Of a DNA stretch of 64,000 nucleotides, positions 3 to 24,156 are shown piece after piece. Within the stretch, counting starts at the first letter, position 1. Each line of letters opens with the position of its first letter. The position numbers and the translations under genes were made by a program. The DNA lies in NCBI GenBank assembly GCA_029001845.1, contig JAREWP010000100.1:1-64000 (forward strand), read 5' to 3'. This stretch comes from Candidatus Magnetocorallium paracelense (GTDB lineage: Bacteria > Nitrospirota > Thermodesulfovibrionia > Thermodesulfovibrionales > Magnetobacteriaceae). The notes below the pieces were generated by a model. The model saw nothing but the letters and a program-made list of their open reading frames with translations, had not been told where the DNA came from and made no database searches.

Positions 3-2126
3 TTGAGCATCATTAACGACATACTCGATTTTTCAAAAATGGATGCCGGTAAACTAAATCTCGAGTCAACTGATTTTCAGCTCAACGAAGTATTAAATCA
101 ACTGGCCGATATGTTCGGACGTCAGGCAGCTGAAAAGGATATCGAGCTTGTTATATTTCCATCTCTTGAACTGCCGCCTGCTTTGATTGGTGACTCATTA
201 CGTTTGAATCAGGTCTTATCAAATCTTCTTGCCAATGCCATAAAATTTACTGATCAAGGTGAAATCATATTACGGGCAAAGCTTATAGAGAAGGTTGCGG
301 ATAAGGTCGTATTAGAGTTTTCAGTAGAAGACACCGGAGTAGGTATAAAAGAAGATGATCTGTCCAAATTATTTGATTCCTTTATCCAGGCCGACGGCTC
401 TACGTCACGTAAATACGGAGGGACGGGACTCGGGCTTGCCATCTCAAAGCATATTGTAGAAATGATGGATGGACGCATATGGGCTGAAAGCACACCCGAC
501 AAGGGAAGCGCATTTTATTTTACCGCAGGTTTCGGATATAGGCCGGAACAAGAGAATCGTCGTTTTTCCTGCGACAGTTTACATGGCATGAAAGTTTTGA
601 TAGTTGATGACAACGCCTCAAATCGAGAGGCGTTAACCGAACTTGTCCGCTCGCTTTCCTTTGATCCGGTGTCCGTCGACTCCGGTGAAGAGGCTATAAA
701 GACCCTGGGCAGGTCAGTTACCGAAGAGAGTCCCTATGGCGTTATTTTAATGGACCGGAATATGCCGGAAAAAGACGGTCTTGAAACTACAAGGGAGATA
801 CTCGCCAGAGATGAATTTTTCGGAGAATGCAATAAAGTGGATCCCCCGACAAGGATACCTAAAATACTGCTTCTTATTACATTAGGTAATGAAGAAATCA
901 TACAAGAGGTTGAAAAAACAGGAGTAAACGATGTTTTAATAAAGCCGGTGACTCAATCGGTTTTATTTGACACTATTATGAAAGTCTTTGGCCAATCATA
1001 TGTTACAGAACTTACTCATAGCAGCGCTATCGCGGATGAAAATGAGGTGAGGTCTCGAATAGGAGGGGCAAAGGTGCTTGTAGTAGAGGATAACAATATC
1101 AATCGGCAGATTGCAGAGGAATATCTTGAAAGAGTCGGAGTAACCGTCGATTTGGCCGTAAACGGTTTTGAAGCCCTTCGTTATATAAATGAAAATGATT
1201 ATAACGCCGTACTCATGGATATTCAAATGCCTGAGATGGATGGTTTCCAGGCGACTGCAAGGATTCGTGAAGATGAAAGATTTCATGAGCTGCCGATAAT
1301 CGCCATGACGGCCCATGCAATGAAAGGAGATCAGGAGAGGTGCCTCTCCTCCGGCATGGATGATTATGTAACAAAGCCGATAGAGCCTGATGTTCTATAT
1401 ACGCAGCTTATGAAATGGATCAAAAAAACAGAGAAAGCATTCCCTGTTGCCGAAGTCCGAATCCCTGTTTCAGGTGAGCAAGAAGATAGAGAAATACCAT
1501 ATCTGTCACCCGGAATCGACAGGGAAACGATTATCAGGAGATTTCGAGGTAATACGATAAAAATAGAGGGCCTGCTTATGGATTTTTACAAAGACTTCAA
1601 TGAAAGTCCCTCTAAAATAAGGGCATTGCTTGAAAATGATGAACTTGAAAGCGCCGGGGAGGAAATCCACATGATAAAAGGAGTCTCCGGTAACCTGGCT
1701 GCCGATGATTTACACAGACTTGCGTCTGAGCTGGAAAAAAAGATCAGAAACAAAGAAAAAACCGCCTTAAACTCAATGCTTGAGAAATTTGAAGAATCTA
1801 TGTTCCTTGTATTAAATCGTTGCAAGGAAATCGTTGACGCCAATGAAGAAAGGAGCCGCCTGAAAGAGACTTCCCATAGAGAGGATAGAGACATCACTCA
1901 GGACAAGGAAAAGATCGAGCTTTTGATAAGAGAGATGCATACTCTTTTGGAAGGACAGAATGTTAAAGCCGGTAAACGTATTCAGGATCTTAAGCAATTT
2001 CTAAAAAGCAGTAAATATGACAAGGATATGAACGGAATGGACGAAATGTTGAGGCGCTTTGATTTCAAAAACGCTCTTGAAGTGCTTAATACGATCGCCG
2101 TTGATCTTGAGATATCTCTGAAATGA
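3..2126 (+). CDS. Hybrid sensor histidine kinase, 3' part (HATPase-REC-REC-HPt)
   Basis: This is the C-terminal part of a large phosphorelay kinase whose N-terminus lies upstream of the window. The first codon is TTG, but it is internal to the gene, because the reading begins with [15 protein letters not shown], the second helix of a HisKA domain whose phospho-histidine is missing here. Next comes a HATPase_c domain (about residues 30-180) with DTGVGIK and GTGLGLAIS. A first receiver follows (about 195-330, acceptor D in LMDRNMP), then a second receiver (about 355-475, D in LMDIQMPEMDG). An HPt domain (about 510-610) carries the histidine in EIHMIKG. The order fits a multi-step phosphorelay. 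The output partner is not identifiable, and the GGDEF regulator just downstream is a candidate by position only. Confidence 0.9.
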   Translation: MSIINDILDFSKMDAGKLNLESTDFQLNEVLNQLADMFGRQAAEKDIELVIFPSLELPPALIGDSLRLNQVLSNLLANAIKFTDQGEIILRAKLIEKVADKVVLEFSVEDTGVGIKEDDLSKLFDSFIQADGSTSRKYGGTGLGLAISKHIVEMMDGRIWAESTPDKGSAFYFTAGFGYRPEQENRRFSCDSLHGMKVLIVDDNASNREALTELVRSLSFDPVSVDSGEEAIKTLGRSVTEESPYGVILMDRNMPEKDGLETTREILARDEFFGECNKVDPPTRIPKILLLITLGNEEIIQEVEKTGVNDVLIKPVTQSVLFDTIMKVFGQSYVTELTHSSAIADENEVRSRIGGAKVLVVEDNNINRQIAEEYLERVGVTVDLAVNGFEALRYINENDYNAVLMDIQMPEMDGFQATARIREDERFHELPIIAMTAHAMKGDQERCLSSGMDDYVTKPIEPDVLYTQLMKWIKKTEKAFPVAEVRIPVSGEQEDREIPYLSPGIDRETIIRRFRGNTIKIEGLLMDFYKDFNESPSKIRALLENDELESAGEEIHMIKGVSGNLAADDLHRLASELEKKIRNKEKTALNSMLEKFEESMFLVLNRCKEIVDANEERSRLKETSHREDRDITQDKEKIELLIREMHTLLEGQNVKAGKRIQDLKQFLKSSKYDKDMNGMDEMLRRFDFKNALEVLNTIAVDLEISLK

Positions 2127-2275
2127 CATAAGAGATGAGTAAATCACTGAACTGATCATATCCTTATTAATGAATCATAGCTGTTTATCTGTATAATGTT
2201 TTTTTGATTCAGAGTACAGTTTATTACCGAATCATTAATGAAACGTAGTGTTTTTAGTTATTGGTGTTTAAACTT

Positions 2276-3187
2276 ATGGATTCAACAGTAAAAGCTAAAA
2301 TATTAATTGTCGATGATTCACCGATTAACATCACGGCGCTTGTGGAGATATTGGAAACCGAGTATGACATTTTTGTTGCAACGAATGGCGGGGACGCGTT
2401 AAAGATTGCTGAAAAGCAGAAGCCTGACCTTATTCTGCTGGATATTGTAATGCCTGAAATAGATGGTTTTGAAATATGTAAAAAACTAAAATCAGACGAA
2501 TCGACATCATCCATTCCTGTAATCTTTGTAACCGGCAGTATCTCTGAACATGATGAAACCGAGGGGTTTGATATCGGCGCGGTGGACTATATCAACAAAC
2601 CGGTGCGCAAGGCAATTGTCAAGGCCAGGGTTAGAAGTCATCTTGAGACCAAAAGACAACGCGATATGCTTGAGAATCTTACAAAAATTGACGGACTTAC
2701 GGGAATACCGAATCGCAGAAATTTTGACGAAGTTCTGCTTAGTAAGTGGCGGTGCGCTCAAAAAAGTGAAACCCATTTATCTATTGCAATGATTGATATT
2801 GATCACTTCAAACAATATAATGACACCTATGGTCACGCCACGGGAGACTCTTGTTTAAGGAAGGTCGCGCAGGCTTTGATCGGCTCTTGTAAAAGACCCG
2901 GCGATTTTGTCGCTCGTTACGGTGGTGAAGAGTTTGCGGTCATTCTTTCTGAAACAGATAAAAATGCAGCCCTTGTCGTTCTCGAAAGAATGAAAGAAAA
3001 CATCAAGTCGCTTTTAATCGAACATTCCAGCTCAAATGTAAGTAATTATATTACCTTAAGCATTGGATTGGCATCAATGGTTCCTATAAAGGACTTCTCT
3101 CCCGACTCCTTAGTTGAAAAAGCGGATCAGATACTTTATCAGGCTAAGAAAAACGGACGTAATAGGATTGAAGTGGCTTATAAGTAA
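2276..3187 (+). CDS. Response regulator with GGDEF domain (diguanylate cyclase)
   Basis: The protein has an N-terminal receiver domain (about residues 5-120, acceptor D in LLDIVMPEIDG, conserved K in INKPVRK) and a C-terminal GGDEF domain (about 135-300). The signature is GGEEF, which is catalytically competent, so c-di-GMP synthesis from two GTP under phosphorylation control is expected. No RxxD inhibitory site is obvious just upstream of the signature. I chose the ATG at 2276 over an in-frame TTG 15 bases earlier because the receiver begins at once with AKILIVDD; neither start has a strong Shine-Dalgarno. The gene follows the phosphorelay kinase after about 150 bases on the same strand. Assignment of the domains is secure; the signal and target are unknown. 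Confidence 0.93.
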   Translation: MDSTVKAKILIVDDSPINITALVEILETEYDIFVATNGGDALKIAEKQKPDLILLDIVMPEIDGFEICKKLKSDESTSSIPVIFVTGSISEHDETEGFDIGAVDYINKPVRKAIVKARVRSHLETKRQRDMLENLTKIDGLTGIPNRRNFDEVLLSKWRCAQKSETHLSIAMIDIDHFKQYNDTYGHATGDSCLRKVAQALIGSCKRPGDFVARYGGEEFAVILSETDKNAALVVLERMKENIKSLLIEHSSSNVSNYITLSIGLASMVPIKDFSPDSLVEKADQILYQAKKNGRNRIEVAYK

Positions 3188-3445
3188 AATAAAAAAAGGC
3201 TTTTTACAATGTTAAAATTATATCCTCACATTTCTCAACATACAACCGAGAAGATAACTGGAAGTAAGGTTACGCAGTATAGCTTATACAAAGTAGCTTT
3301 TTGAAATTTGAAAAATTTAATGATATAAGAACGATATAAGAATGAAAGTCGCTTCGATAAAATGTATATTTTTTGTAACTATTCAGCGAGTCACCAATGG
3401 TGTGCAATATTTGCACACTATAATTTCATTAACTAATATGAGATA

Positions 3446-3718
3446 ATGTTCTCAATGACAATTGAGAACATAGAGATAGAGGAGACAATAAAGCGAGTAC
3501 GCGAACTATTGTCCGAGGAGAAGGATATTTCACCTGCATTAAAAGCAGCCATAGAAGTAATGATGGTAGCTTTAACATTAGTATACAAGAGATTAGGGAT
3601 AAACAGTACAAATAGTAGCAAACCGCCATCCCAAGACCCGAACCGGAAAAAGATAAAGAAAGTAAGCGGTAAAAAGGCAGGTGGTCAAAAACGAATTAAA
3701 GAAGTATACCCTTCCTGA
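3446..3718 (+). pseudogene. IS66-family transposase, N-terminal fragment
   Basis: The 90-residue reading frame has the N-terminal features of IS66 TnpC transposases. It starts with a helical segment and continues with the hallmark basic linker RLGINSTNSSKPPSQDP and GKKAGGQ. The rest of the protein (zinc-binding region, DDE core) is missing: the frame runs out 25 codons after the linker and nothing resembling the catalytic part follows. It is therefore a relic. No terminal inverted repeat could be assigned. It marks the start of a decayed stretch reaching to the truncated glycosidase. Confidence 0.75.
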
Positions 3719-3797
3719 AAGTATGGCAGCTGAAGTAAATGAATTGTCCGGCCTTATAAAGAAGTATAAATTTAAAGAGGCTAAAGAATTATATGAA

Positions 3798-3974
3798 TTA
3801 CTTACAAAAAGGCCTGAAGTTTGAGAATGAGAGAATTTTAATTAATTGGATATAAAAACAACGATTGACAAACTTGGTGCTGTGGATTGTTCCTTCCCTT
3901 GTAATGAACTCCTCGATAGTACCTTGTAATGCTTCCGGGGTTAGTTTATCTATTGGTATAGTTATATTTGACAT
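3798..3974 (-). pseudogene. YheU-like (UPF0270) N-terminal fragment
   Basis: On the minus strand a 58-codon frame begins with ATG and reads MSNITIPIDKLTPEAL, followed by IEEFITREGT. This matches the N-terminal half of the small YheU/UPF0270 family, where an IP..LxPExL stretch precedes EEFxxREGT(D)YG. After REGT the reading changes to unrelated residues, so the C-terminal half is lost by rearrangement or frameshift. On the opposite strand, a frame ending at about 3824 (reading LPESMAAEVNELSGLIKK) looks like the tail of another broken gene, perhaps the HPt tail of a sensor kinase. Family assignment rests on a short match. Confidence 0.45.
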
Positions 3975-4086
3975 GAATTAGTGTTGACTGATATAAAATT
4001 CAAGTTATTAAGGAAACAGTACTAAAAAAGAATACAGAAATGATATTCTTAGTAATTATACATATTTTGAGGGAAAATGAGAATAT

Positions 4087-4473
4087 ATGAGTACAAAAGT
4101 ACCTGTTTTAGTAGATAAAGACCGATTCTATATCTCTCAAGTTGAATATAAGGATAAAATCCCAAAATTTCTTGAGGTAAGGGGTCTTCCTGTCGATATT
4201 CCGACAGAAGGATATGAAGACCTTGATCTGTTTATCCATAAAACCATTACTTCTGATCCTGATGACCTTGATCCGGACAGACAATTGACAATAAGCGAGG
4301 GTAAGACCGGAATGGCGATAACTAATGTTGGAGATTTGGAGGAAGCGTCCTCGGCAGTAGTAGATATACTAAATTATCACCGGGAAATCGGTAATCCAGA
4401 GGCTATATCCAAGGCTACCAAGCAGATATTGAAGGATAAGAGCAGTCTTTCCCCACGGTATAAATGGAAATAA
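4087..4473 (+). CDS. Hypothetical protein, 128 aa
   Basis: I do not recognise this protein. It is acidic and soluble-looking, without a signal peptide or membrane segment. It has a central DPDDLDPDR stretch and a helical C-terminus ending in YKWK. The ATG is preceded by a purine-rich stretch (GAGGGAAAATGAG) that could act as a ribosome-binding site. It stands alone between decayed IS/YheU fragments and a MITE-like repeat, so it may belong to the accessory material. The frame is open throughout and amino-acid composition looks normal, which is why I keep it as a gene. Confidence 0.5.
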   Translation: MSTKVPVLVDKDRFYISQVEYKDKIPKFLEVRGLPVDIPTEGYEDLDLFIHKTITSDPDDLDPDRQLTISEGKTGMAITNVGDLEEASSAVVDILNYHREIGNPEAISKATKQILKDKSSLSPRYKWK

Positions 4474-4740
4474 CGGTACACATTGAGTAGAGACAGAGCT
4501 AAAGAAATATAACGAAAAAGACCGGACTCTGTGCGGGTTACTGGAAGAAGGGATTTTTTCTAAGCTTCTGAATTCACGCGTAGATGATTTATCAATCGAC
4601 AAAAGTGGATTTTTTCTCAAGAATGCAGATATAATTTGAATATCACAAAACCCGGGAAGGGCTGGATCGAACACTGCATATACAAAACTGTTTAATTAGC
4701 TATCTCTTGCTATCGTTAATCAATATTAAAATTTGCATAT

Positions 4741-5003
4741 GGCCCTTATAAAAATTATTACTTAACCCTATATATTAGAAATATATTTTCCTAACTCGGC
4801 ATAACCGAAACCAAATAAGATTTTCGGAACGTTTTAATGACAAAATTCAAATGTCAAATCAAATCCAAATGACTAAATGCCAAAACTTGCTTTCATGCTT
4901 TTTTAACATTTGAGCTTTGGTTTTGGTTTGGCATTTGAGTTTTGGAATTTGACATTAAAAAAATATTGGTGCTTTTTCGCGCACAATTTTACTTATAAGG
5001 GCC
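4741..5003. repeat. MITE-like element with terminal inverted repeats
   Basis: The stretch begins GGCCCTTATAAaaatt and ends with aattttacTTATAAGGGCC, giving 11-base inverted ends inside an otherwise non-coding gap. Internally there is a second imperfect palindrome: AATGCCAAAAC at about 4877 pairs with GTTTTGGTTTGGCATT at about 4920-4937. The last 38 bases before the right end (4962-4999) recur in inverted orientation at 24381-24418, just downstream of the full-length glycosidase gene. No target-site duplication is clear. It carries no gene, and the remaining sequence from 4474 to 4740 shows nothing recognisable. Confidence 0.6.
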
Positions 5004-5073
5004 TAATACTTATACATAGATTAATAGCAACGATATTTCGATTCTTTTCATATAAGGAGTGGAGGAATTAACT

Positions 5074-6444
5074 GTGTTTAAATCAACAATTATACGGATC
5101 ATATGTGTTTTTGGAATTTTTTTTGCCGGACCTCTTTACTCTCAGCCGCAGTTGCCAATTGGAATGAATTTGACGAAGATTAATTATTATACTAATGAAC
5201 TGTTATTTTCTGATCTTGCTAAAACTCTAGGCGGAGGGACATACGGGTATGACGGGTTTGGCACAGGTGGATGGTTAACTAAGGATGAAGGGAGTCATGA
5301 GTGGGATACAGGGAAAATCGCTGATATTCCAATGGACGAACAAGGCTATCCTCTGGAGATACCTTATAATGGTTCGTATGTTCATGCCCTTTTTTCCAAT
5401 AATTATCCTGAAGGCACCTACCTTGTATTGTATGATGGTGAAGGAGTGGTGCATGTTTCTGATCCACGTAGTGGTGGAACCTATGAGATAGAAAACACAC
5501 CCGGTAAAATTATTTTTTATTTGAGTGGAAAAGGACTTGAGGATCAGGTTAATGGTATTGGAGAGGTAAAATTTAACCAATTGATTATTAAATCATCTAC
5601 AAAGGGAAATCATGTGAGAAATATTAGGATTATTCCAGCCTCTATGGAGTTCACCTATGAGGACAATCTTTTTTATAAGCCCTTTCTTGAAGCAGTTCGA
5701 CCATTCCAGACTATTCGGTTAATGCAGACTCAACATACTAATGGGCAGTATTATGTCAACCCTGATGATCCGGCTGATGTCTCAGCTCTTCCAACAGATA
5801 CTCATACTGAGTTCGCCGGCAAAATATACTGGGAGGATCGGAGAAAGCCGGATGATTTTACTCAGGAGTCAACTCCCGGAAAGGCTGTGTGTTATGAATA
5901 TCTACTGCAATTGAGTAATGAAGTACGGGCTAATGCATGGTTGTCCATCCCTCACAGAGCAGACAAGCATTATAATTATGAACTCGCTAAATTAGTTAAG
6001 GAAACACTTGATCCCGACCTAAAAATCTATATCCAATACTCCAATGAAGTGTGGAATCATGCTGACGAGTTCCCACAGTCGCAATGGATTAATAATAATG
6101 CTCCCGGAGCGTCAGCCGATATCCAAGCCGCCTTGGCCGCCCTTCCGGATTATCCTGAAAAAATGGCCTATATGCAAAAATATATATTTGATATCTGGCT
6201 AACAGTTTTTACCGGAGAGGAGCGGAAAAGACTTGTACTGGTCGCCACGTCTCAACATGCACAACCGGTCGGCATTCAACAGCATCCTCCCGTGGCGGCA
6301 CTACAGCAACCGGAATTTTTAGGAGTTATTTTTAAAATATCTTCTTTGACTATGGCAGCTAAACAACCGGTCCCTTTGGTTAGATCAATAGCATCAAAAG
6401 TACAATTTAACCGGCAGGCTCCGCACTCCATACAACCGGGATAG
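5074..6444 (+). pseudogene. 3'-truncated secreted glycosidase-like protein (paralogue of the 20.4 kb gene)
   Basis: The GTG start has a good GGAGG Shine-Dalgarno eight bases upstream; a GTG five codons earlier overlaps that site and is less likely. A signal peptide (IIRIICVFGIFFAG) precedes LPIGMNLTK. The protein aligns by eye with the N-terminal half of the large hydrolase at 20431: IGMNL/IGTNL at the mature start, EGTYLVLYDGEG/AGEYTLLWEGDG, and YSNEVWN/YGNEHWN near residue 321, a likely TIM-barrel acid/base region. Resemblance stops at about 6270. From 6276 onward the frame only reads the antisense of hgcB, so the last 55 or so residues are not native. The gene has lost its barrel end and any downstream modules, so it is probably inactive. 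Confidence 0.75.
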
Positions 6445-6548
6445 TCTATCAGCACAGCCTTGGAATCAACCAGTGCAATTACTCCCTGAGGGCAAACATG
6501 GATGCATTGACTGCATCCGGTACATTTATTCGTATTAAACTCAATCAC
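6276..6548 (-). CDS. hgcB: HgcB, 2[4Fe-4S] ferredoxin for mercury methylation
   Basis: This 90-residue ferredoxin starts with GTG, which overlaps the TGA stop of hgcA (GTGA), so the two are translationally coupled. Two cluster motifs are present: CxxCxxCxxxCP near residues 9-19 and CMECGACRLNC at 39-49, the latter typical of HgcB. A single later cysteine, Cys62 in GTGCLAA, fits the conserved lone cysteine of HgcB, and the protein ends in cysteine pairs. There are two pairs here (Cys81-82 and Cys89-90) in a short glycine/serine tail; HgcB is known for one terminal pair. In the family HgcB passes low-potential electrons to the HgcA corrinoid and may bind Hg(II). Assignment follows from motifs plus coupling to hgcA. 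Its stop codon lies exactly where the truncated glycosidase reading ends. Confidence 0.9.
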   Translation of the reverse strand: MIEFNTNKCTGCSQCIHVCPQGVIALVDSKAVLIDYPGCMECGACRLNCTFDAIDLTKGTGCLAAIVKEDILKITPKNSGCCSAATGGCC

Positions 6549-7564
6549 CCTATAACTCCTTGTATAATAATCAGACTCAAATTACCCAGAAAAAAGAGAG
6601 CCGCCACCGGTAAAAAGCGGATAATTTCTTTCTTTACCAATGAATAATTACTCACACCGCTGTTCCCTGTATAATACAAACCAAAAAAAAGGCTGATGGC
6701 TACAATGTAGGTAAAATAGGCGCCATATAATAGAGGATTAAAGTCTGTCTTGCTGATTATGGACCGGCCGATTCCCAGGGCGAGAGAGATAATTCCTGCC
6801 AGAATCAAGCCTTTCAAAGCAAACGATCGAGTGGGCAGCAAGGGAAACAGGAGGATATACGATATCCCTATAAACAGGCTGAGAGGGATAACCTGCCAGT
6901 GAAAGCCGGTGTGCATAAGCAAATCCAGAGCAAACAGGCCTATGGCAATCAGAATAATATATTTTGCAAATTGTAACATTGACGGCGCCAGAGAAAAACT
7001 GCGGTCTCCCAAGTCGAAGCGATACACAGCGCTCTTGCAGCTCTGTAGAGGCTGTTCATCCAGCCAGGCGGGTAAGTCCGAGACATACACAGGTCCGATC
7101 ACCGGCATTAAGCCTCCGTCCCGCAGCTCCTTCAACGATACCCCGGAAAGAGACAATTTCGGCAGCACAACTTGTAGTTTGGCATCCTCTGGCTTGAGAA
7201 TTTCATCGGGATAGAGTTCCAGCTGACGAAAAATTTCCTTAGCCGAAAATTGTCCTTTCCCTGCGGAGCACCACACATTGATTCCTTTGGTATCAATAAT
7301 CAGAATCCGCACATTACGACTTCTGATAATGCGCCATAGCATAAAGACCGTTAAATGATAATTACAACTGACCAGTAAAGGCGTATCACGGTCATAAACA
7401 TTTCCGGTATAATAGAGCCCCGGTTCCAGGGCCATCGCTTGTCGGTAAGATCGCAACCAGCAATAGAGGGCTTTAAACAGGTCGAGAAGGGAGAAATCCA
7501 GCTTTTTAGTTTTGGCTCCCACAGGGGTTTTACTGCAACAAGAGGTTTTACATCCACATTCCAT
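6545..7564 (-). CDS. hgcA: HgcA, corrinoid membrane protein for mercury methylation
   Basis: The 339-residue length matches HgcA. The cap-helix signature reads NVWCSAGKG with the cobalt-ligand cysteine at residue 99; the usual form is N(V/I)WCA(A/S)GK, so the residue after Cys is Ser instead of Ala. Other family features are EPGLYYTGN at 47-55, the LVSCNYHLT strand before the cap helix, VIGPVYVSDLPAWL after the corrinoid domain, and about five membrane segments between residues 200 and 337. The protein is expected to transfer a corrinoid-bound methyl group to Hg(II), giving methylmercury, at the cytoplasmic membrane. The N-terminus MECGCKTSCC has four cysteines, which I do not know as a general HgcA feature. 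A clear AAGGAG site precedes the ATG, and a sigma-70-like promoter lies just upstream. It is a remote member next to the PF03599-type corrinoid proteins, but the HgcB partner makes the call firm. Confidence 0.9.
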   Translation of the reverse strand: MECGCKTSCCSKTPVGAKTKKLDFSLLDLFKALYCWLRSYRQAMALEPGLYYTGNVYDRDTPLLVSCNYHLTVFMLWRIIRSRNVRILIIDTKGINVWCSAGKGQFSAKEIFRQLELYPDEILKPEDAKLQVVLPKLSLSGVSLKELRDGGLMPVIGPVYVSDLPAWLDEQPLQSCKSAVYRFDLGDRSFSLAPSMLQFAKYIILIAIGLFALDLLMHTGFHWQVIPLSLFIGISYILLFPLLPTRSFALKGLILAGIISLALGIGRSIISKTDFNPLLYGAYFTYIVAISLFFGLYYTGNSGVSNYSLVKKEIIRFLPVAALFFLGNLSLIIIQGVIG

Positions 7565-7596
7565 GCAATACTCCTTAGATTAAATATTCTAATGAT

Positions 7597-7625
7597 AGTA
7601 TATGCCAAAAACAGTATATAATCAA
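7597..7625 (-). promoter_or_regulatory. Predicted sigma-70 promoter of hgcAB
   Basis: Read on the minus strand, TTGATT and TATACT are separated by 17 bases, close to consensus. Transcription would start near 7590 and give a leader of about 26 bases that contains the AAGGAG ribosome-binding site of hgcA. No clear operator palindrome overlaps it. Confidence 0.55.
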
Positions 7626-7833
7626 GTCATTTGAGTTTTTTTTCTTGCACCACTGCTTCTTCTTTAATATTTTCATGCTTTGTGGTGGCCCGGAGGATCA
7701 TGGGTGTTTAATACGTAATATCAGACCAACACAACGGCAACAGCTAGGGGCCGATTCCTGCCCTTATCCACTTAAAATGAGTTTCTACGGTAATAATTGA
7801 AGTTTATAGGCAGTATGTTGCATAATTGTAAAA

Positions 7834-10353
7834 ATGAGGAATAAAACTCAAGCATATCAAGGTTTTGCAAATAAAGCATTCTTTTCATTGTATCTGCTGC
7901 CTGTCGTCTTGCTGGGTCTGGGTATTCTTTCAATTATATTTCTGCTTTGGACAAAAAGGAATTTAAATGTGCATGTTCAAAACAGTAGAATCAACTATGC
8001 AATGTTGGATTTGCAAGCAAATATTGCTAACTTTCATCTCTGGTTTGAAGAATATGTAAGTGGAGATATTCACATAGAGATGACAAAGGAATGGCGGAGA
8101 CTTAAAAAAGCCGAGACACTGCTTATGGTGATACGGGACGGTGGAGACACAGAGCATGGTGCTATTAAACGGCCTATGAGAGATGAATCGATTTTAAAAG
8201 AATTACGGAAAGTACAAATACTGTTGACGGAGTTTAATAATGTTGCACTGAAAAGATACGAGGATATCATAAGCGGAGGAGTAGGTTCAGCATTAGATCA
8301 ACAATTGGATGAAACTTTTCAAAAACTTATGACCAAAGCCAAAGATGTAGAGTTGATTATTGATGAGCATTGCAGACATCTTCTGGAGAGGTCAGATCAC
8401 TTATATCTGATTATATTGCTTTCGTGGATTACTATAATAATTATAGCGATAGGCGCAATCCTGGTTATGATTAGGCATCGTTTTATAATAGAAGACAAAT
8501 TACGAGCAGAAAGGGACAGGACACAGATGTATATAGATGTGGCCGGAGTAATCTTCGTGGTTATTGGCGCCGATCAAAAGGTACTTTTGATTAACAAAAA
8601 AGGATGTGAAATTTTAGGATGCAAAGAGAGTGAAATTATAGGCAGAAACTGGTTCGATACCTTTCTCCCCTACTACGAGAGAGAAAGAGTAAAAAATGTA
8701 TTTGATAAACTAATAAGTGGTGAGATTGGCAATTTCGAAAACTACGAAAATTCAATATTAACTAAAAACGGCGAAGAGAGAGTCATCACCTGGCAAAACA
8801 GTGTATTAAAGGAAGATACAGGAAATATTATCGGTGCTTTGAGTTCCGGAAACGACATTACGGAACAAAGAGTCATTGAAAACGCACTGAGAGAATCCGA
8901 GGCCAGGTATCGTACTCTTGTGGAACATATCCCTGCAATTACGTATATCGCAGCCCTTGATGAAAGCAGTACGACTCTCTATGTCAGCCCTCAGATTGAG
9001 ACAATGATTGGTTTCTCTCAAAAAGAATACAGAGAGAATCCTCAGATATGGCGGGAACAGCTTCATCCGGACGACAGAGAAGGTGTATTGAAAGAAGTAT
9101 CATCATGCCATAACAGCGGTAAGCCCTTTAAAAGTGAATACCGTATGATTTCAAGAGGTAATGAGGTGAAGTGGTTTAGAGACGAAGCTGATTTGGTAAA
9201 AGATAAAGACGGCGCTCCGTTTTTATTACAAGGCTTAATGTTGGACATAACCGAAACGAAAAAGATGGAACAAGCCATAAGAGAATCTGAGGAGAAATAT
9301 CGCACCTTAATGGATAATGCCGGGGACGCTATATTACTGTTCGATACTGATGGAAACCTTATAGAAGCAAACAAAAAGGCGGAACAGCTCTTTGGTTATG
9401 CAAAATATGATTTATTAAAAACGAATTTCAAACTACTTTTTTCAAAAGATGATTTGGAGGTGTATATTGAGAAATTTAATGAGATCATACATAATGGGAT
9501 CGGCTACTTAAAACAGGCGACTATCATCAGAAATGACGACGAATATGTCCCTGTAAACATCTCCGGTAATACCATAAATTATTACAGCAAAGTAGTTGTT
9601 CAAGCCATATTTAGAGATATTTCGGAAGAGCTTCGCCATCAATCGGAGGTCATAAGGGCGGGTCAGCTTGCTACGATAGGAGAACTTGCAGCCGGCGTGG
9701 CTCATGAGGTTAACAATCCTATACACGGTATTATGAATTATGCTCAACTAATCATAGACGACTATAAAGACGAAGACCTGGTGAAAAATTACTTGGAGGA
9801 GATTATCAATGAAAGTGAAAGAATCGCGGATATAGTAATGAGTCTTCTCTCTTTTTCCAGAGATGACATCAATGAAAAAACAAGTATTTCCATAGAAGAT
9901 ATAATCCATAATTCATTAAATTTAATTGAAGGTCAATTGAAAAAAGAGGGGATTGACCTCAAGCTCGACATTCCTGATGATCTCCCGGAAGTTTTGGTAA
10001 ATAAACAGGAAATCCGTCAGGTGTTTATGAATATCATCCAGAACGCACGCTATGCATTAAACAAGAGATATCCTGCTGCAAATGAAAAAAAGAGACTCGA
10101 AGTAACCTGCCGCAGCATATTATGGAATGACAAGCCGTACATTCATACTGTCTTTTACGACAACGGTATCGGCATCCCCCAAAAATTAGTAGAGAAAATA
10201 AAGTCGCCTTTTTTTACTACAAAACAGTCCAATGAGGGGACGGGCCTGGGTTTGAGTATCAGCAACAATATTATAATCGATCACGGAGGAGAGATAATAA
10301 TAGAAAGCAAAGAGACTGAATTCACGGAAGTAACGGTTCGTCTTCCTTTGTGA
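7834..10353 (+). CDS. PAS-domain sensor histidine kinase (NtrB/AtoS type)
   Basis: The 839-residue kinase is membrane anchored: hydrophobic segments near residues 18-40 and 192-214 flank a periplasmic helical domain. Three PAS domains follow (about 230-350, 360-475, 480-600); the second contains the typical LHPDDRE ending. HisKA comes next with the phospho-histidine in AAGVAHEVNNP, then HATPase_c with DNGIGIP and GTGLGLSIS at the C-terminus. The gene is 30 bases upstream of a sigma-54 activator, its evident cognate regulator. It is divergent from hgcA across about 270 bases that hold the hgcAB promoter. The ligand is unknown, and the start has no strong Shine-Dalgarno. Confidence 0.92.
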   Translation: MRNKTQAYQGFANKAFFSLYLLPVVLLGLGILSIIFLLWTKRNLNVHVQNSRINYAMLDLQANIANFHLWFEEYVSGDIHIEMTKEWRRLKKAETLLMVIRDGGDTEHGAIKRPMRDESILKELRKVQILLTEFNNVALKRYEDIISGGVGSALDQQLDETFQKLMTKAKDVELIIDEHCRHLLERSDHLYLIILLSWITIIIIAIGAILVMIRHRFIIEDKLRAERDRTQMYIDVAGVIFVVIGADQKVLLINKKGCEILGCKESEIIGRNWFDTFLPYYERERVKNVFDKLISGEIGNFENYENSILTKNGEERVITWQNSVLKEDTGNIIGALSSGNDITEQRVIENALRESEARYRTLVEHIPAITYIAALDESSTTLYVSPQIETMIGFSQKEYRENPQIWREQLHPDDREGVLKEVSSCHNSGKPFKSEYRMISRGNEVKWFRDEADLVKDKDGAPFLLQGLMLDITETKKMEQAIRESEEKYRTLMDNAGDAILLFDTDGNLIEANKKAEQLFGYAKYDLLKTNFKLLFSKDDLEVYIEKFNEIIHNGIGYLKQATIIRNDDEYVPVNISGNTINYYSKVVVQAIFRDISEELRHQSEVIRAGQLATIGELAAGVAHEVNNPIHGIMNYAQLIIDDYKDEDLVKNYLEEIINESERIADIVMSLLSFSRDDINEKTSISIEDIIHNSLNLIEGQLKKEGIDLKLDIPDDLPEVLVNKQEIRQVFMNIIQNARYALNKRYPAANEKKRLEVTCRSILWNDKPYIHTVFYDNGIGIPQKLVEKIKSPFFTTKQSNEGTGLGLSISNNIIIDHGGEIIIESKETEFTEVTVRLPL

Positions 10354-20060: not shown

Positions 20061-20430
20061 TGGTAAAAATAACGAAATATCGTAATTTTATCCCTATTGC
20101 GATAAGCTGGCTATATTAAAAAAAGCTCTCTCTGAGACTCTAAAGCATATATCGCTAAGGAATTAAATTTCCCCCATTATCACTCCTTTAAACAACTCTC
20201 TCTTCCGGTTATTCTCCCAATGCATTGCCAACCCTTTGTCTGTAAGCCTTTGTCTGAAAAAATGGTCAACTGTTCGACTGTATTACCATATTCACAGCAT
20301 GATTAAATATAAATAATAAATACATCTTAGTTATACATGGTACGGTCTTTGATATATAGTAAGCAGAGATTCAAAGATGATCATCGTTTTTTTTAGTCTT
20401 ATTAAAATTTTAAAACTTTTGGAGGCAAAA

Positions 20431-23400
20431 ATGAAGAGGGTCAAAAGAGTCGGTGTTAAATTATCAAAAGAAATTCTTACCTGTTTAGTTTTATTGGCGA
20501 CATTAACCATTTACATCCATCCCGTTGAAGCAGCAGTTGAAAACACAGAGAATCTTACTTCCCCCATTGGAACGAATTTACATTTCTTTACATACCACAG
20601 TCCTGACTGGGTCTTTGTAGACGTCTTTCCAAAGACGCAGGAATTCACCAAAATGCGTTGCAGTGGCGGCGGGTGGAATGAGGGGCCTGATCTGGCCACC
20701 GATTCCAACGGTTGGATAACCTCTCTGCAGGATGACCAGTGTGCGGGGTTTTATCTGTTTTGGCTCTCCGAGGGTGCGCAAGCACAATACCCCGCCGGGG
20801 AATACACCCTTTTGTGGGAAGGAGACGGGAGCTTCCAGATTTCAGGGGACGCACATTTTACTCATAACCAGGGAGAGTCTGTGGACCAGAGTAATGGTCT
20901 TAACAAAGTTACCTTTCAGGTTACCCCCTCTACCTCCAATGACGGCCTTTTCTTTCGAATCAGCTCCGTTGCATCAGACTATTTGAGAAATATGCGTCTC
21001 ATTATGCCGGGCGGCGTATGCGGACAGGAACAGGATATGAACAATCTCGATTACTTCAGCCATTGTGAAACAACAAGAGGAGGTTCCGGTACATGCGGCA
21101 CGGGCGAGATATGTTATGACTTCGAGGAGGTCTATTGGGACAGGTTCAGGGATTCCGATAATGCAATGAACAATCCCGGAGTTGTATTTCATCCTGAGTA
21201 TTTGGAAAGACTCCGAAAATACAAAGTACTTAGGGCCACTTTTTGGATGGCGGTGCATAACAATCCCCTGCAAAACTGGTCTGACAGGGCCGGTCTTCAA
21301 AAGCAGACCTTCGCAGATAACGGAGGCAGTTACTCTCTTGAAGCAAACAGCGGAGTGCCTTATGAAATATACATTGCCCTGGGTAACATCCTCAATGCGG
21401 ATCTGTGGTTAAATATTCCCTATGAAACCACCAACGATTTCAATACTCAATTTGCAAATCTGGTATTAAATAAACTCAACACAAACCTGAAAGTCTATCT
21501 TGAATACGGTAATGAACACTGGAATCCAAGCGACTATTTTGTATCGGGATGGAACTACCTGCTTGACAAGGCGAACGAGCCCGGTTCCGGGATCGACTCG
21601 AACGCCGATGATGGTGTAAAGGTGGCGAGGTATTACTCACAGAGAGCCGGGGAAATCCATGCGATTTGGAGAAACGCCTTTTCAGATTCCGAGAGTCGTA
21701 TTATACGGGTGTTAGGGGGGCATACCGCCAGTCCCGAACACACTCGGGAAGTTTTGGACTGGCAAATGGCGTACCAAAATGCAGACACTCTGGCAATACA
21801 CGGCTATTTTGCCGGGGAACTGTTTAATGCAAATAATGAGGCCGCCATTCTGTCAATGTCAGTTGATGATATATTTAATGAAATAAACAATGGCGGGCTT
21901 GGCTCGGAAAGTTCTTTGGACCGTACTAACTCCCATTACAACACCAATTACAGCCTTGCCGACGAAAGGGGATTGGACCTGATTGCATATGAAGGAGGAC
22001 AATATCTTGTAGCGGACATATTCAGCAGTGTAAATCAGACAGCGATTTATAACCTTTTCCTTGAAGCCAATCGTGACTCAAGGATGGGGGATGCGACTCT
22101 GACGAATTTTAATAACTTTAGAAACGCCGGTGGAAAGACCTTCTTACACTTTAGCAATACCTCCTGGTACTCTGTTTACGGTACGAATGGCGCCCTCGAA
22201 TATCAGACACAGCCCCGCAGCGATTCGCCCAGATACGACGCCATCATGACCTTTATCGAGCAGAACGACTGCTGGTGGAACAATTGTGAAGGTACGACCG
22301 GAGAGACGCCTGTGAGCTATTATTCGCTGTTAATAGAAAAAGAGGGCACAGGCATGGGAACCGTGACGAGTTCCTTAGAAGGGATCGATTGCGGCAATGA
22401 CTGCAGAGAGACATATTTGGGAGATACGATAGTTACACTCACCGCCGCACCCTCGGAAAGCTCTCTTTTTACGGGTTGGAGCGGAGGCGGCTGTTCCGGT
22501 ACAGGGGAGTGTATTGTAACGCTGAATGCTTCTACAACGGTAGAGGCGACTTTTGAGAGGCCCTTTGTTATTGCACAGGGCAGGAATCTTATCGATAACA
22601 TAAATAATCAGATCATATGGCTCAGAGGCGTGAATGTGGACGCCCAGTGGGTGGTAGTAGACAGTACGGGAGAGTGGACCCTTGACGACGATTTCACCGG
22701 AACTGCAACACCGGCAATAGAGTTATATTCCGATATGGTGACAGAGGCCGATTTTGCGGCAATTCGTGAAATGGGGATGAATACGGTAAGACTGAACCTC
22801 AATTATCAGATATTTGAAGAGAGAGACACACCCTATGTGTATCGACAGGAGGGTTGGAATTTTCTGGATCAGGTCATCGAGCAGGCAAGAAACAACGACC
22901 TCTATTTGACGCTGAGCATGGTAACGCCTCAGGGCGGATATCAGCCCTGTTGGGGATGCGGCGCCGAATTCTGGGATGATCAGCAAAACAGTGAAAGATT
23001 TGTCGCACTGTGGCGTGAAATTGCGGGTCGTTATGTAAACGAGCCTGTTATTTCCGGGTACGATCTGCTCAATGAACCCAATCCGACATATAATGTGCAG
23101 CAGTGGCAGGATATAGCACAGCAGACGATCGACGCCATTCGCACCGTGGACAACAGACATTTGGTTGTTGTGGAAGCCGTTAACTGGATTGTAGACGCCA
23201 ACGGCAGTTCACCGTGGCCGGTTGATGAATCGACTTTTCAGTTTCCTGTAAATGACAGCAATGTGATGTATGACTTCCATTTTTACGAACCCATGGACTT
23301 TACGCACCAGCAGGTTCCTTGGGCAGGATATCCCGAGCCGGCGGCGTACCCCGATCAGACAGTTATCTATTTCCCCGACGACCTTCAATGGAGCGATTCG

Positions 23401-24156
23401 GAAAATACGACGGCGATTCCAAGCGGTACATCGGACTGGCAGCCCTATGAAAGCGGAATGTACAGAATCGACACAGATGTGGTTGCAGCCTATCCTTCCC
23501 TTTACTGTTGGAATAACACTGGAACCGTTTACTATGACGATCTTGTAATTAACGAATATGACGAAAACAATGTTTTTGTCAGAGAAGTCATGAATCTGGA
23601 TTTTTCTTCATCAGAGGAATGGTCCCATTGGGGGGACGGTGAATTTATCAGGTCGACTCAGGGCCGCAATGACAATGCCTCATTGGCCATGCAGGGTACG
23701 ACCAATGGCTCCTGGTACAATAATGATTTACGATTTCAGGTGCATCGGGACTATAGTTACCGGATAAACGGCTATATGTCGGGCGAAGATATAGGCGACG
23801 GCGCCTGGTGCGTCATGAATATCACTTTTGAATCAAGCAGCTCTCAGACTCCGGTCCTTCTCAGAGACAGAGAGTATGTGGAATATCATCTCTTACAGAG
23901 AGCGCAGTTCGGAATCGAGAACAATGTTCCTGTCAATGTCGGTGAGTTCGGGCCTTCCAGAGAATCCTACGGAGACGGGCTGGGCGGCATGACTTACCTG
24001 GAAGATGTTCTTGACCTTATGGTGAGCAATAATCTGCACTTTACCTATTATACATATAATAACTGGAATGAAGGCTATGAAGGCGAATATGCGCCTGTAC
24101 CGGGGTTGTATGATTTCCTAAGGAATTATTACCTGACGATAAATCAGACTCCTTAA
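20431..24156 (+). CDS. Large secreted multidomain glycoside hydrolase with C-terminal GH5 domain
   Basis: The ATG at 20431 follows a GGAGG site; a start 54 bases upstream is in frame but lacks one. A signal peptide ends near VEAA (about residue 35). The first 600 residues resemble the truncated gene at 5074, with YGNEHWN near residue 358 as a likely catalytic region of a TIM barrel. A bacterial beta-repeat module follows at about 630-710 (GTGMGTVTSS, FTGWSGGGC). The C-terminal GH5 cellulase-like domain starts with WLRGVNVD and has the acid/base Glu in LLNEPNP near residue 880 and the nucleophile Glu in VGEFGPS near 1170. Between HFYEP and the nucleophile there is an insertion of about 190 residues that reads like a jelly-roll carbohydrate-binding module. 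Many cysteines suggest extracellular disulfides. The substrate is probably a beta-glucan or mannan, not determined. Confidence 0.85.
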   Translation: MKRVKRVGVKLSKEILTCLVLLATLTIYIHPVEAAVENTENLTSPIGTNLHFFTYHSPDWVFVDVFPKTQEFTKMRCSGGGWNEGPDLATDSNGWITSLQDDQCAGFYLFWLSEGAQAQYPAGEYTLLWEGDGSFQISGDAHFTHNQGESVDQSNGLNKVTFQVTPSTSNDGLFFRISSVASDYLRNMRLIMPGGVCGQEQDMNNLDYFSHCETTRGGSGTCGTGEICYDFEEVYWDRFRDSDNAMNNPGVVFHPEYLERLRKYKVLRATFWMAVHNNPLQNWSDRAGLQKQTFADNGGSYSLEANSGVPYEIYIALGNILNADLWLNIPYETTNDFNTQFANLVLNKLNTNLKVYLEYGNEHWNPSDYFVSGWNYLLDKANEPGSGIDSNADDGVKVARYYSQRAGEIHAIWRNAFSDSESRIIRVLGGHTASPEHTREVLDWQMAYQNADTLAIHGYFAGELFNANNEAAILSMSVDDIFNEINNGGLGSESSLDRTNSHYNTNYSLADERGLDLIAYEGGQYLVADIFSSVNQTAIYNLFLEANRDSRMGDATLTNFNNFRNAGGKTFLHFSNTSWYSVYGTNGALEYQTQPRSDSPRYDAIMTFIEQNDCWWNNCEGTTGETPVSYYSLLIEKEGTGMGTVTSSLEGIDCGNDCRETYLGDTIVTLTAAPSESSLFTGWSGGGCSGTGECIVTLNASTTVEATFERPFVIAQGRNLIDNINNQIIWLRGVNVDAQWVVVDSTGEWTLDDDFTGTATPAIELYSDMVTEADFAAIREMGMNTVRLNLNYQIFEERDTPYVYRQEGWNFLDQVIEQARNNDLYLTLSMVTPQGGYQPCWGCGAEFWDDQQNSERFVALWREIAGRYVNEPVISGYDLLNEPNPTYNVQQWQDIAQQTIDAIRTVDNRHLVVVEAVNWIVDANGSSPWPVDESTFQFPVNDSNVMYDFHFYEPMDFTHQQVPWAGYPEPAAYPDQTVIYFPDDLQWSDSENTTAIPSGTSDWQPYESGMYRIDTDVVAAYPSLYCWNNTGTVYYDDLVINEYDENNVFVREVMNLDFSSSEEWSHWGDGEFIRSTQGRNDNASLAMQGTTNGSWYNNDLRFQVHRDYSYRINGYMSGEDIGDGAWCVMNITFESSSSQTPVLLRDREYVEYHLLQRAQFGIENNVPVNVGEFGPSRESYGDGLGGMTYLEDVLDLMVSNNLHFTYYTYNNWNEGYEGEYAPVPGLYDFLRNYYLTINQTP

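Follow-up and report, generated by a model that had tools for sequence, protein, structure and literature searches.

The closest described systems are the HgcA/HgcB pair of P. mercurii ND132 and other organisms, represented by the NCBIfam models NF040863 and NF040864, the fused HgcAB-like proteins of the P. furiosus and M. methylutens type (NF043039), and the large subunit of the CFeSP (AcsC/CdhE; PF03599, NF003195). Selenoprotein families of HgcA and HgcB have reportedly been treated by Haft and Gwadz in 2023. Mutagenesis in ND132 demonstrated that mutation of Cys73 of HgcB abolishes methylation and that at least one terminal Cys is required for maximal activity (PMC7305189). P. furiosus and M. 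methylutens, which carry the fused gene, showed no Hg methylation when tested (PMC5893877). Surveys of mercury methylators depend on HMM cut-offs and motifs: McDaniel et al. demand G(I/V)NVWCAAGK and a score of 300 (PMC7438021), and a list of accepted HgcA motifs includes NVWCSAGK (PMC8546676). ArsR and ArsC have been reported near canonical hgcA (PMC7438021), and "Spirochaetes-like" long-branch hgc genes have also been described (PMC7536318).

The window analyzed here, a stretch of 64,000 nucleotides from Candidatus Magnetocorallium paracelense (Nitrospirota), contains two minus-strand genes that the first-pass annotation had read as a complete hgcA-hgcB pair and hence as the mark of a predicted mercury methylator. 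Both reading frames are present in the ORF list at the positions given by that annotation (Table 1), and the sequence bears out the GTGA in which they overlap, which likely couples the translation of hgcA and hgcB. The pair is real and intact. Near hgcA, a search for RNA elements such as a cobalamin riboswitch returned one match only, at chance level. The genome (6.0 Mb, 99.6% complete) carries one such pair and no canonical hgcA, and its own ACS/CFeSP genes are located separately on contig C54.

Table 1. Features of the hgcA-hgcB locus in the window
Feature	Coordinates	Strand	Basis or remark
Truncated gene for an exoprotein, paralogous to the 1259-aa product of 20377-24156 (+)	5059..6267	+	Similarity stops at 6267
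hgcB, HgcB-like dicluster ferredoxin, 90 aa, GTG start	6276..6548	-	ORF list, NF040864, motifs
GTGA overlap, hgcA stop / hgcB start	6545..6548	-	Sequence
hgcB ribosome-binding site AAGGAG, within hgcA	6556..6561	-	Sequence
hgcA, HgcA-like corrinoid protein, 339 aa, ATG start	6545..7564	-	ORF list, NF040863, AlphaFold2, 9a0b_A match
hgcA ribosome-binding site AAGGAG	7571..7576	-	Sequence
Weak sigma-70-like promoter candidate, TTGATT-17-TATACT, 9/12	7597..7625	-	Such sites not above chance in the region

HgcA consists of a predicted cytoplasmic corrinoid domain (residues ~24-182) followed by five transmembrane (TM) helices. The cap-helix Cys99 lies, as previously annotated, within NVWCSAGKG, which fits the pattern N(V/I)WC(A/S)xGK. 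The five C-terminal membrane segments of the earlier reading are recovered both as TM-like segments by hydropathy and in an AlphaFold2 model built from a 38-sequence alignment (mean pLDDT 89.6, pTM 0.83), in which a Rossmann-like domain precedes five long C-terminal helices (185-217, 225-242, 248-270, 277-299, and 307-338). Modeling of the corrinoid domain, which had been recommended as a check, yielded an HgcA-type fold: the model aligns along its full length with 9a0b_A, the published model of HgcA (Z 17.2, 300 residues), and a further match, with Z 14-15 over ~125 residues, links its N-terminal domain to the corrinoid domain of CFeSP. Residues 1-15 (7520-7564) form a Cys-rich N-terminal tail, MECGCKTSCC, of low model confidence; similar Cys tails occur in related proteins of the clade described below and in canonical Nitrospirota HgcAs.

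HgcB contains two 4Fe-4S motifs (CxxCxxCxxxC) at C9/12/15/19 and C39/42/45/49, a lone Cys62 in GTGC that is the equivalent of ND132 Cys73, and the Cys pairs C81/C82 and C89/C90 near the C-terminus, in line with the motifs and cysteines first described. Every residue that mutagenesis ties to Hg methylation is present in the window pair.

The similarity of the pair to HgcA and HgcB is far beyond chance, with 159.6 bits for HgcA on NF040863 (E = 1e-46, profile positions 8-323 of 325) and 78.5 bits for HgcB on NF040864 (E = 2.5e-22). However, both proteins remain well below the respective cut-offs of 275 and 99. The HgcA model is nevertheless the best-scoring NCBIfam model for the window protein, ahead of the HgcAB-like fusion model NF043039 (117.9 bits, cut-off 285, the window locus also being two genes) and the CODH/ACS gamma model (34.7 bits), and the PF03599 match, at 17.2 bits, falls short of the gathering score of 24.8. 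Canonical HgcA controls reach 379.5-456.1 bits on the HgcA model, and canonical HgcA is found above the cut-off, at 341-410 bits, in 23 genomes of the same family and order, while true HgcAB-like fusions attain 391-465 bits on NF043039. Within the same family, the nearest canonical HgcA is encoded by L088 (G005, JADFXP010000026.1, Candidatus Magnetobacteriaceae bacterium nDJH14bin9), whose HgcB scores 121.5 bits. It is this protein that overturns the earlier view of the Ser after the cap-helix Cys as a mark of divergence; the Ser is ruled out as the cause because L088 shares NVWCSAGK and scores 407 bits. The related warning that strict motif searches could miss the window protein holds for the stricter motif and score of McDaniel et al., but not for the accepted list, on which NVWCSAGK appears (PMC8546676). 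In this Magnetobacteriaceae MAG, the canonical HgcA is located at 5806-7373, and an ArsR-like ORF lies directly upstream (5490-5891).

A single-protein scan of genome contigs gave no match, and an alignment query was therefore used. Against 84,980 species genomes, it retrieved seven loci at 41-51% identity, belonging to Spirochaetes (2), candidate division FCPU426, Auribacterota, two MAGs labeled Deltaproteobacteria and Myxococcales, and Planctomycetota, after which identity fell to at most 34%. A clade model built from these seven loci and the window protein gave bimodal scores across 296 genomes of the phylum of the first Spirochaetes member, with six members at 395-521 bits and 35 canonical HgcAs at no more than 182 bits; one member apiece was found in 343 genomes of the Planctomycetota MAG's phylum, 44 of the Auribacterota MAG's phylum, and 395 of the phylum of L085's genome. 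Among 396 genomes from the phylum of the window itself, no other clade member was detected and the best other match is 36% identical; neither plasmid records nor viral contigs gave a match. The clade has 12 members with 28-36% identity to any canonical HgcA, and is spread over Spirochaetota, FCPU426, Auribacterota, Planctomycetota, proteobacterial MAGs, and the Nitrospirota genome of the window. Eight further clade HgcAs score 159.6-183.1 bits on NCBIfam, and a truncated member scores 147.5. The seven named clade genomes all lack canonical HgcA; one of them (G406; L174 and L175) has a fused HgcAB-like gene in addition to its clade member.

In a first tree, the eight clade rows grouped together with a support of 100 (SH-aLRT). 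Since the single CFeSP row of this tree formed a very long outgroup branch, a second tree was computed on the corrinoid domain (140 columns) with six CFeSP rows, in which the 12 clade rows were united at 100/100 outside all canonical HgcA sampled. The canonical set covered archaea and many bacterial phyla, including a MAG of Methanospirillum hungatei, a known Hg methylator species (PMC5893877), with ND132 and Geobacter left out; the label "canonical" for the 72 comparison sequences derives from the retrieving search and from NCBIfam checks on a subset. The window protein is placed outside the clade of verified methylators in both trees (100; 100/100). A branch with 100/100 support divides CFeSP from every HgcA-type protein, and this split, together with the scores on the HgcA and CODH gamma models, upholds the first-pass assignment to the HgcA type as opposed to a CdhD/AcsC paralogue. 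A protein of the HgcA type, a partner of the HgcB type, and the presence of the cysteines needed are supported; the family assignment is not supported, as both proteins are below the cut-offs and the clade is separate. Within the HgcA-type proteins, the clade and the fused HgcAB-like proteins group at 85/62 and canonical HgcA forms one side of a branch at 75/0 only; thus, the branching order of the three groups appears weakly resolved by this 140-column alignment. Judged by alignments and trees, the clade is a separate, so far unlabeled branch of the HgcA family that occurs in several unrelated bacterial groups, and we know of no member that has been assayed for Hg.

Residue conservation was assessed at the 59 positions that are at least 95% conserved in the 72 canonical HgcAs. 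Of these, 38 are retained in the window protein and 31-38 in the clade members, compared with 56-59 in canonical HgcAs and 31-34 in four fused HgcAB-like proteins. The window protein differs at the other 21, about one-third, including R36W, D74F, R77W, Q136K, A139L, and G309L. Invariant in all 12 members are, among others, N96, V97, W98, C99, K103, G104, F106, P135, G141, G157, and P158. The clade-wide shifts comprise R36 to W, F73 to V, D74 to hydrophobic residues, W86 to R, Q136 to K, A139 to L, V154 to P, L240 to F, F298 to Y, and T305 to S; such consistent replacements would signal a functional shift. The clade motif NYHLTV is nearer to the fused proteins and CFeSP than to the canonical NYKLSFD, and could represent the ancestral state. 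All nine aligned clade HgcBs have the equivalent of Cys73, and seven, including that of the window, end in CC, the exceptions being L085 and L086.

An ArsR/SmtB-type regulator is found near six of the 12 clade loci and 25 of the 72 canonical loci, and the two groups therefore sit in similar metal-responsive settings. ArsC is likewise present near 12 of the 72 canonical loci, and arsenic linkage was ruled out as a distinguishing mark of the clade. The most elaborate setting is that of L083 (Auribacterota, 813-5571), an organoarsenic-type resistance operon with the order arsR-hgcA-hgcB-SaoE/SO_0444-like permease-ArsE-ArsF-ArsG-ArsC; an ArsR-type gene also follows hgcB in L081, L082, L196, and L198, with ArsC near L082. 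Neither ArsR, ArsC, nor any other arsenic gene, and no Hg-specific gene, lies beside the window pair. In N-terminally extended members, MarR-type regulators with a CC near the C-terminus adjoin the pair (L085:7264-7776, L087:2503-3012), and in L085 a methyltransferase-like membrane protein is encoded at 7781-8521.

The window pair adjoins a truncated exoprotein gene, the similarity of which ends 9 nt before the hgcB stop codon, with its open frame continuing antisense through hgcB to 6444. The missing 3' part of this gene was not found elsewhere in the window, and the boundaries of the pair show no direct repeats marking an insertion. The position of the pair next to the truncated gene and the absence of the clade from the other sampled genomes of the phylum suggest that it was acquired horizontally and landed in or beside that gene. 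A short ORF (3446-3718, plus strand), ~2.5 kb from the pair, matches DUF6444 (PF20042); it is presumably a fragment of an IS66-type transposase and suggests a mobile neighborhood.

We propose that the pair represents an HgcAB-type system of a separate branch, i.e., a membrane corrinoid methyltransferase with its ferredoxin, which would most likely convert Hg(II) to methylmercury, and we rate this reading at slightly better than even. Regarding the substrate itself, Hg(II) has about an even chance, and another metal(loid) a distinctly smaller one. Cofactor binding, electron flow, methyl donor, and metal are those that we infer from the gene parts, residues, and predicted fold. The corrinoid would be held in the Rossmann-like domain of HgcA, Cys-on via Cys99, with the protein anchored in the membrane by its five helices. 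HgcB, made from the same transcript by coupled translation, would deliver electrons via its two 4Fe-4S clusters so that Co(I) is regenerated, and its Cys62 and C-terminal CC pair may bring in and carry off the thiophilic metal. The methyl group would be derived from a methyl-folate donor; the Wood-Ljungdahl corrinoid system is present in the window genome and absent from most clade genomes. The pair seems independent of this pathway, because seven of the 12 clade genomes, some of them incomplete MAGs, have no strong PF03599 match.

This HgcAB-type reading draws on the invariance of N96, V97, W98, Cys99, K103, G104, and F106 across the clade, the fold match to 9a0b_A, the retained Cys62 and C-terminal Cys pair (such cysteines are absent from two of four fusions, and the fused-gene organisms tested made no MeHg), the occurrence of ArsR/SmtB near both branches, and the higher score of the HgcA model relative to the fusion and CODH models; it is opposed by the sub-cut-off scores of both proteins, the 21 of 59 altered residues, many of them consistent across the clade, the weak 85/62 grouping with the fusions, the ars run of L083, the lack of a terminal CC in L085 and L086, and the lack of an Hg-specific gene adjoining the window pair. 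That the pair works like HgcAB is well supported; that it is HgcAB, and hence belongs to a methylator, is not established, and mercury methylation is plausible.

The same machinery may serve another substrate: the clade would methylate arsenite or a different thiophilic metal(loid), and would methylate Hg incidentally or not at all, a possible but clearly less probable explanation. It gains from the L083 operon, the ArsR-type genes behind hgcB at four further loci with ArsC near one of them, the consistent replacement of canonical-invariant residues, and the weak grouping with fused proteins whose tested carriers make no MeHg. However, the occurrence of ArsR and ArsC near canonical hgcA means that the arsenic setting fails to separate the branches, the complete ArsEFG run was observed at a single locus, arsenic genes are missing beside the window pair, and known arsenic methylation proceeds via the SAM-dependent ArsM. 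Somewhat more doubtful still is the notion that the clade forms a third branch of the HgcA superfamily, so far without annotation, which has its own metal(loid) substrate, perhaps forms organoarsenicals, and has spread horizontally among several phyla; if true, comparison with canonical HgcA would bear on the original function of the mercury methylation genes.

Overly strict cut-offs might conceal a divergent member of canonical HgcA that methylates like the others, and the retention of every catalytic residue, the top rank of the HgcA model, and the accepted motif shared with L088 are in keeping with this; yet the clade-model scores are bimodal, and the clade is monophyletic at 100 and 100/100 outside a broad canonical set; canonical HgcA itself forms one side of a branch at only 75/0 in the short corrinoid-domain tree. 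This explanation is already disfavored and improbable. Decay after acquisition, leaving a non-functional pair, is more improbable again: the adjoining truncated gene, the nearby DUF6444 fragment, and the absence of the branch from the other sampled genomes of the phylum (396 searched) are countered by intact frames, good ribosome-binding sites, the coupled overlap, and the clade-invariant residues. The common corrinoid-domain fold and the weak PF03599 match would agree with a CFeSP subunit (CdhD/AcsC) or another Wood-Ljungdahl paralogue, but this identity has a negligible probability, being refuted by the model scores, the sub-threshold PF03599 match, the tree, and the AlphaFold2 model; the cap-helix Cys and TM domain are present, and separate ACS/CFeSP genes are located elsewhere in the genome, on C54.

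A sub-cut-off branch with the needed cysteines implies either missed methylators, possibly in Spirochaetota, FCPU426, Auribacterota, Planctomycetota, and Nitrospirota, or look-alikes wrongly counted by lenient surveys. The branch is also relevant to the question of why hgcAB is carried by cells at all, because the residues of the core chemistry are kept, about a third of the near-invariant residues are changed, and one member sits in an organoarsenic-type efflux operon. What makes the pair interesting is its branch more than its motif.

Compared with the HgcA/HgcB of ND132 and others, the window pair shares the gene order, the corrinoid and five-TM domains with the cap-helix Cys, the dicluster ferredoxin with a lone Cys and terminal CC, and the full-length fold. 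It differs in its identity of at most 28-36%, in the scores of both proteins, and in its altered near-invariant residues, and its HgcB lacks the N-terminal KYL-type extension and reads GTGCL...KEDILK where canonical proteins read GVGCA...I. With the HgcAB-like fusions, it shares the LTV motif after Asn68 (NYHLTV/NFELTV, as opposed to the canonical LSFD), the weak grouping in the tree, and a comparably low count of canonical residues. Unlike the fusions, the pair is encoded by two genes, scores far below the fusion cut-off, and has Lys103, which is present in all 12 clade members and missing from the fusions examined; moreover, it keeps the shuttle cysteines of HgcB, whereas two of four fusions (L172, L174) have no cysteine beyond the second cluster motif. 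The likeness to the CFeSP large subunit is confined to the corrinoid-domain fold (Z 14-15, ~125 residues), as the window HgcA has no 4Fe-4S N-terminal domain, possesses the cap-helix Cys and TM domain, and belongs to a clade set apart from CFeSP at 100/100.
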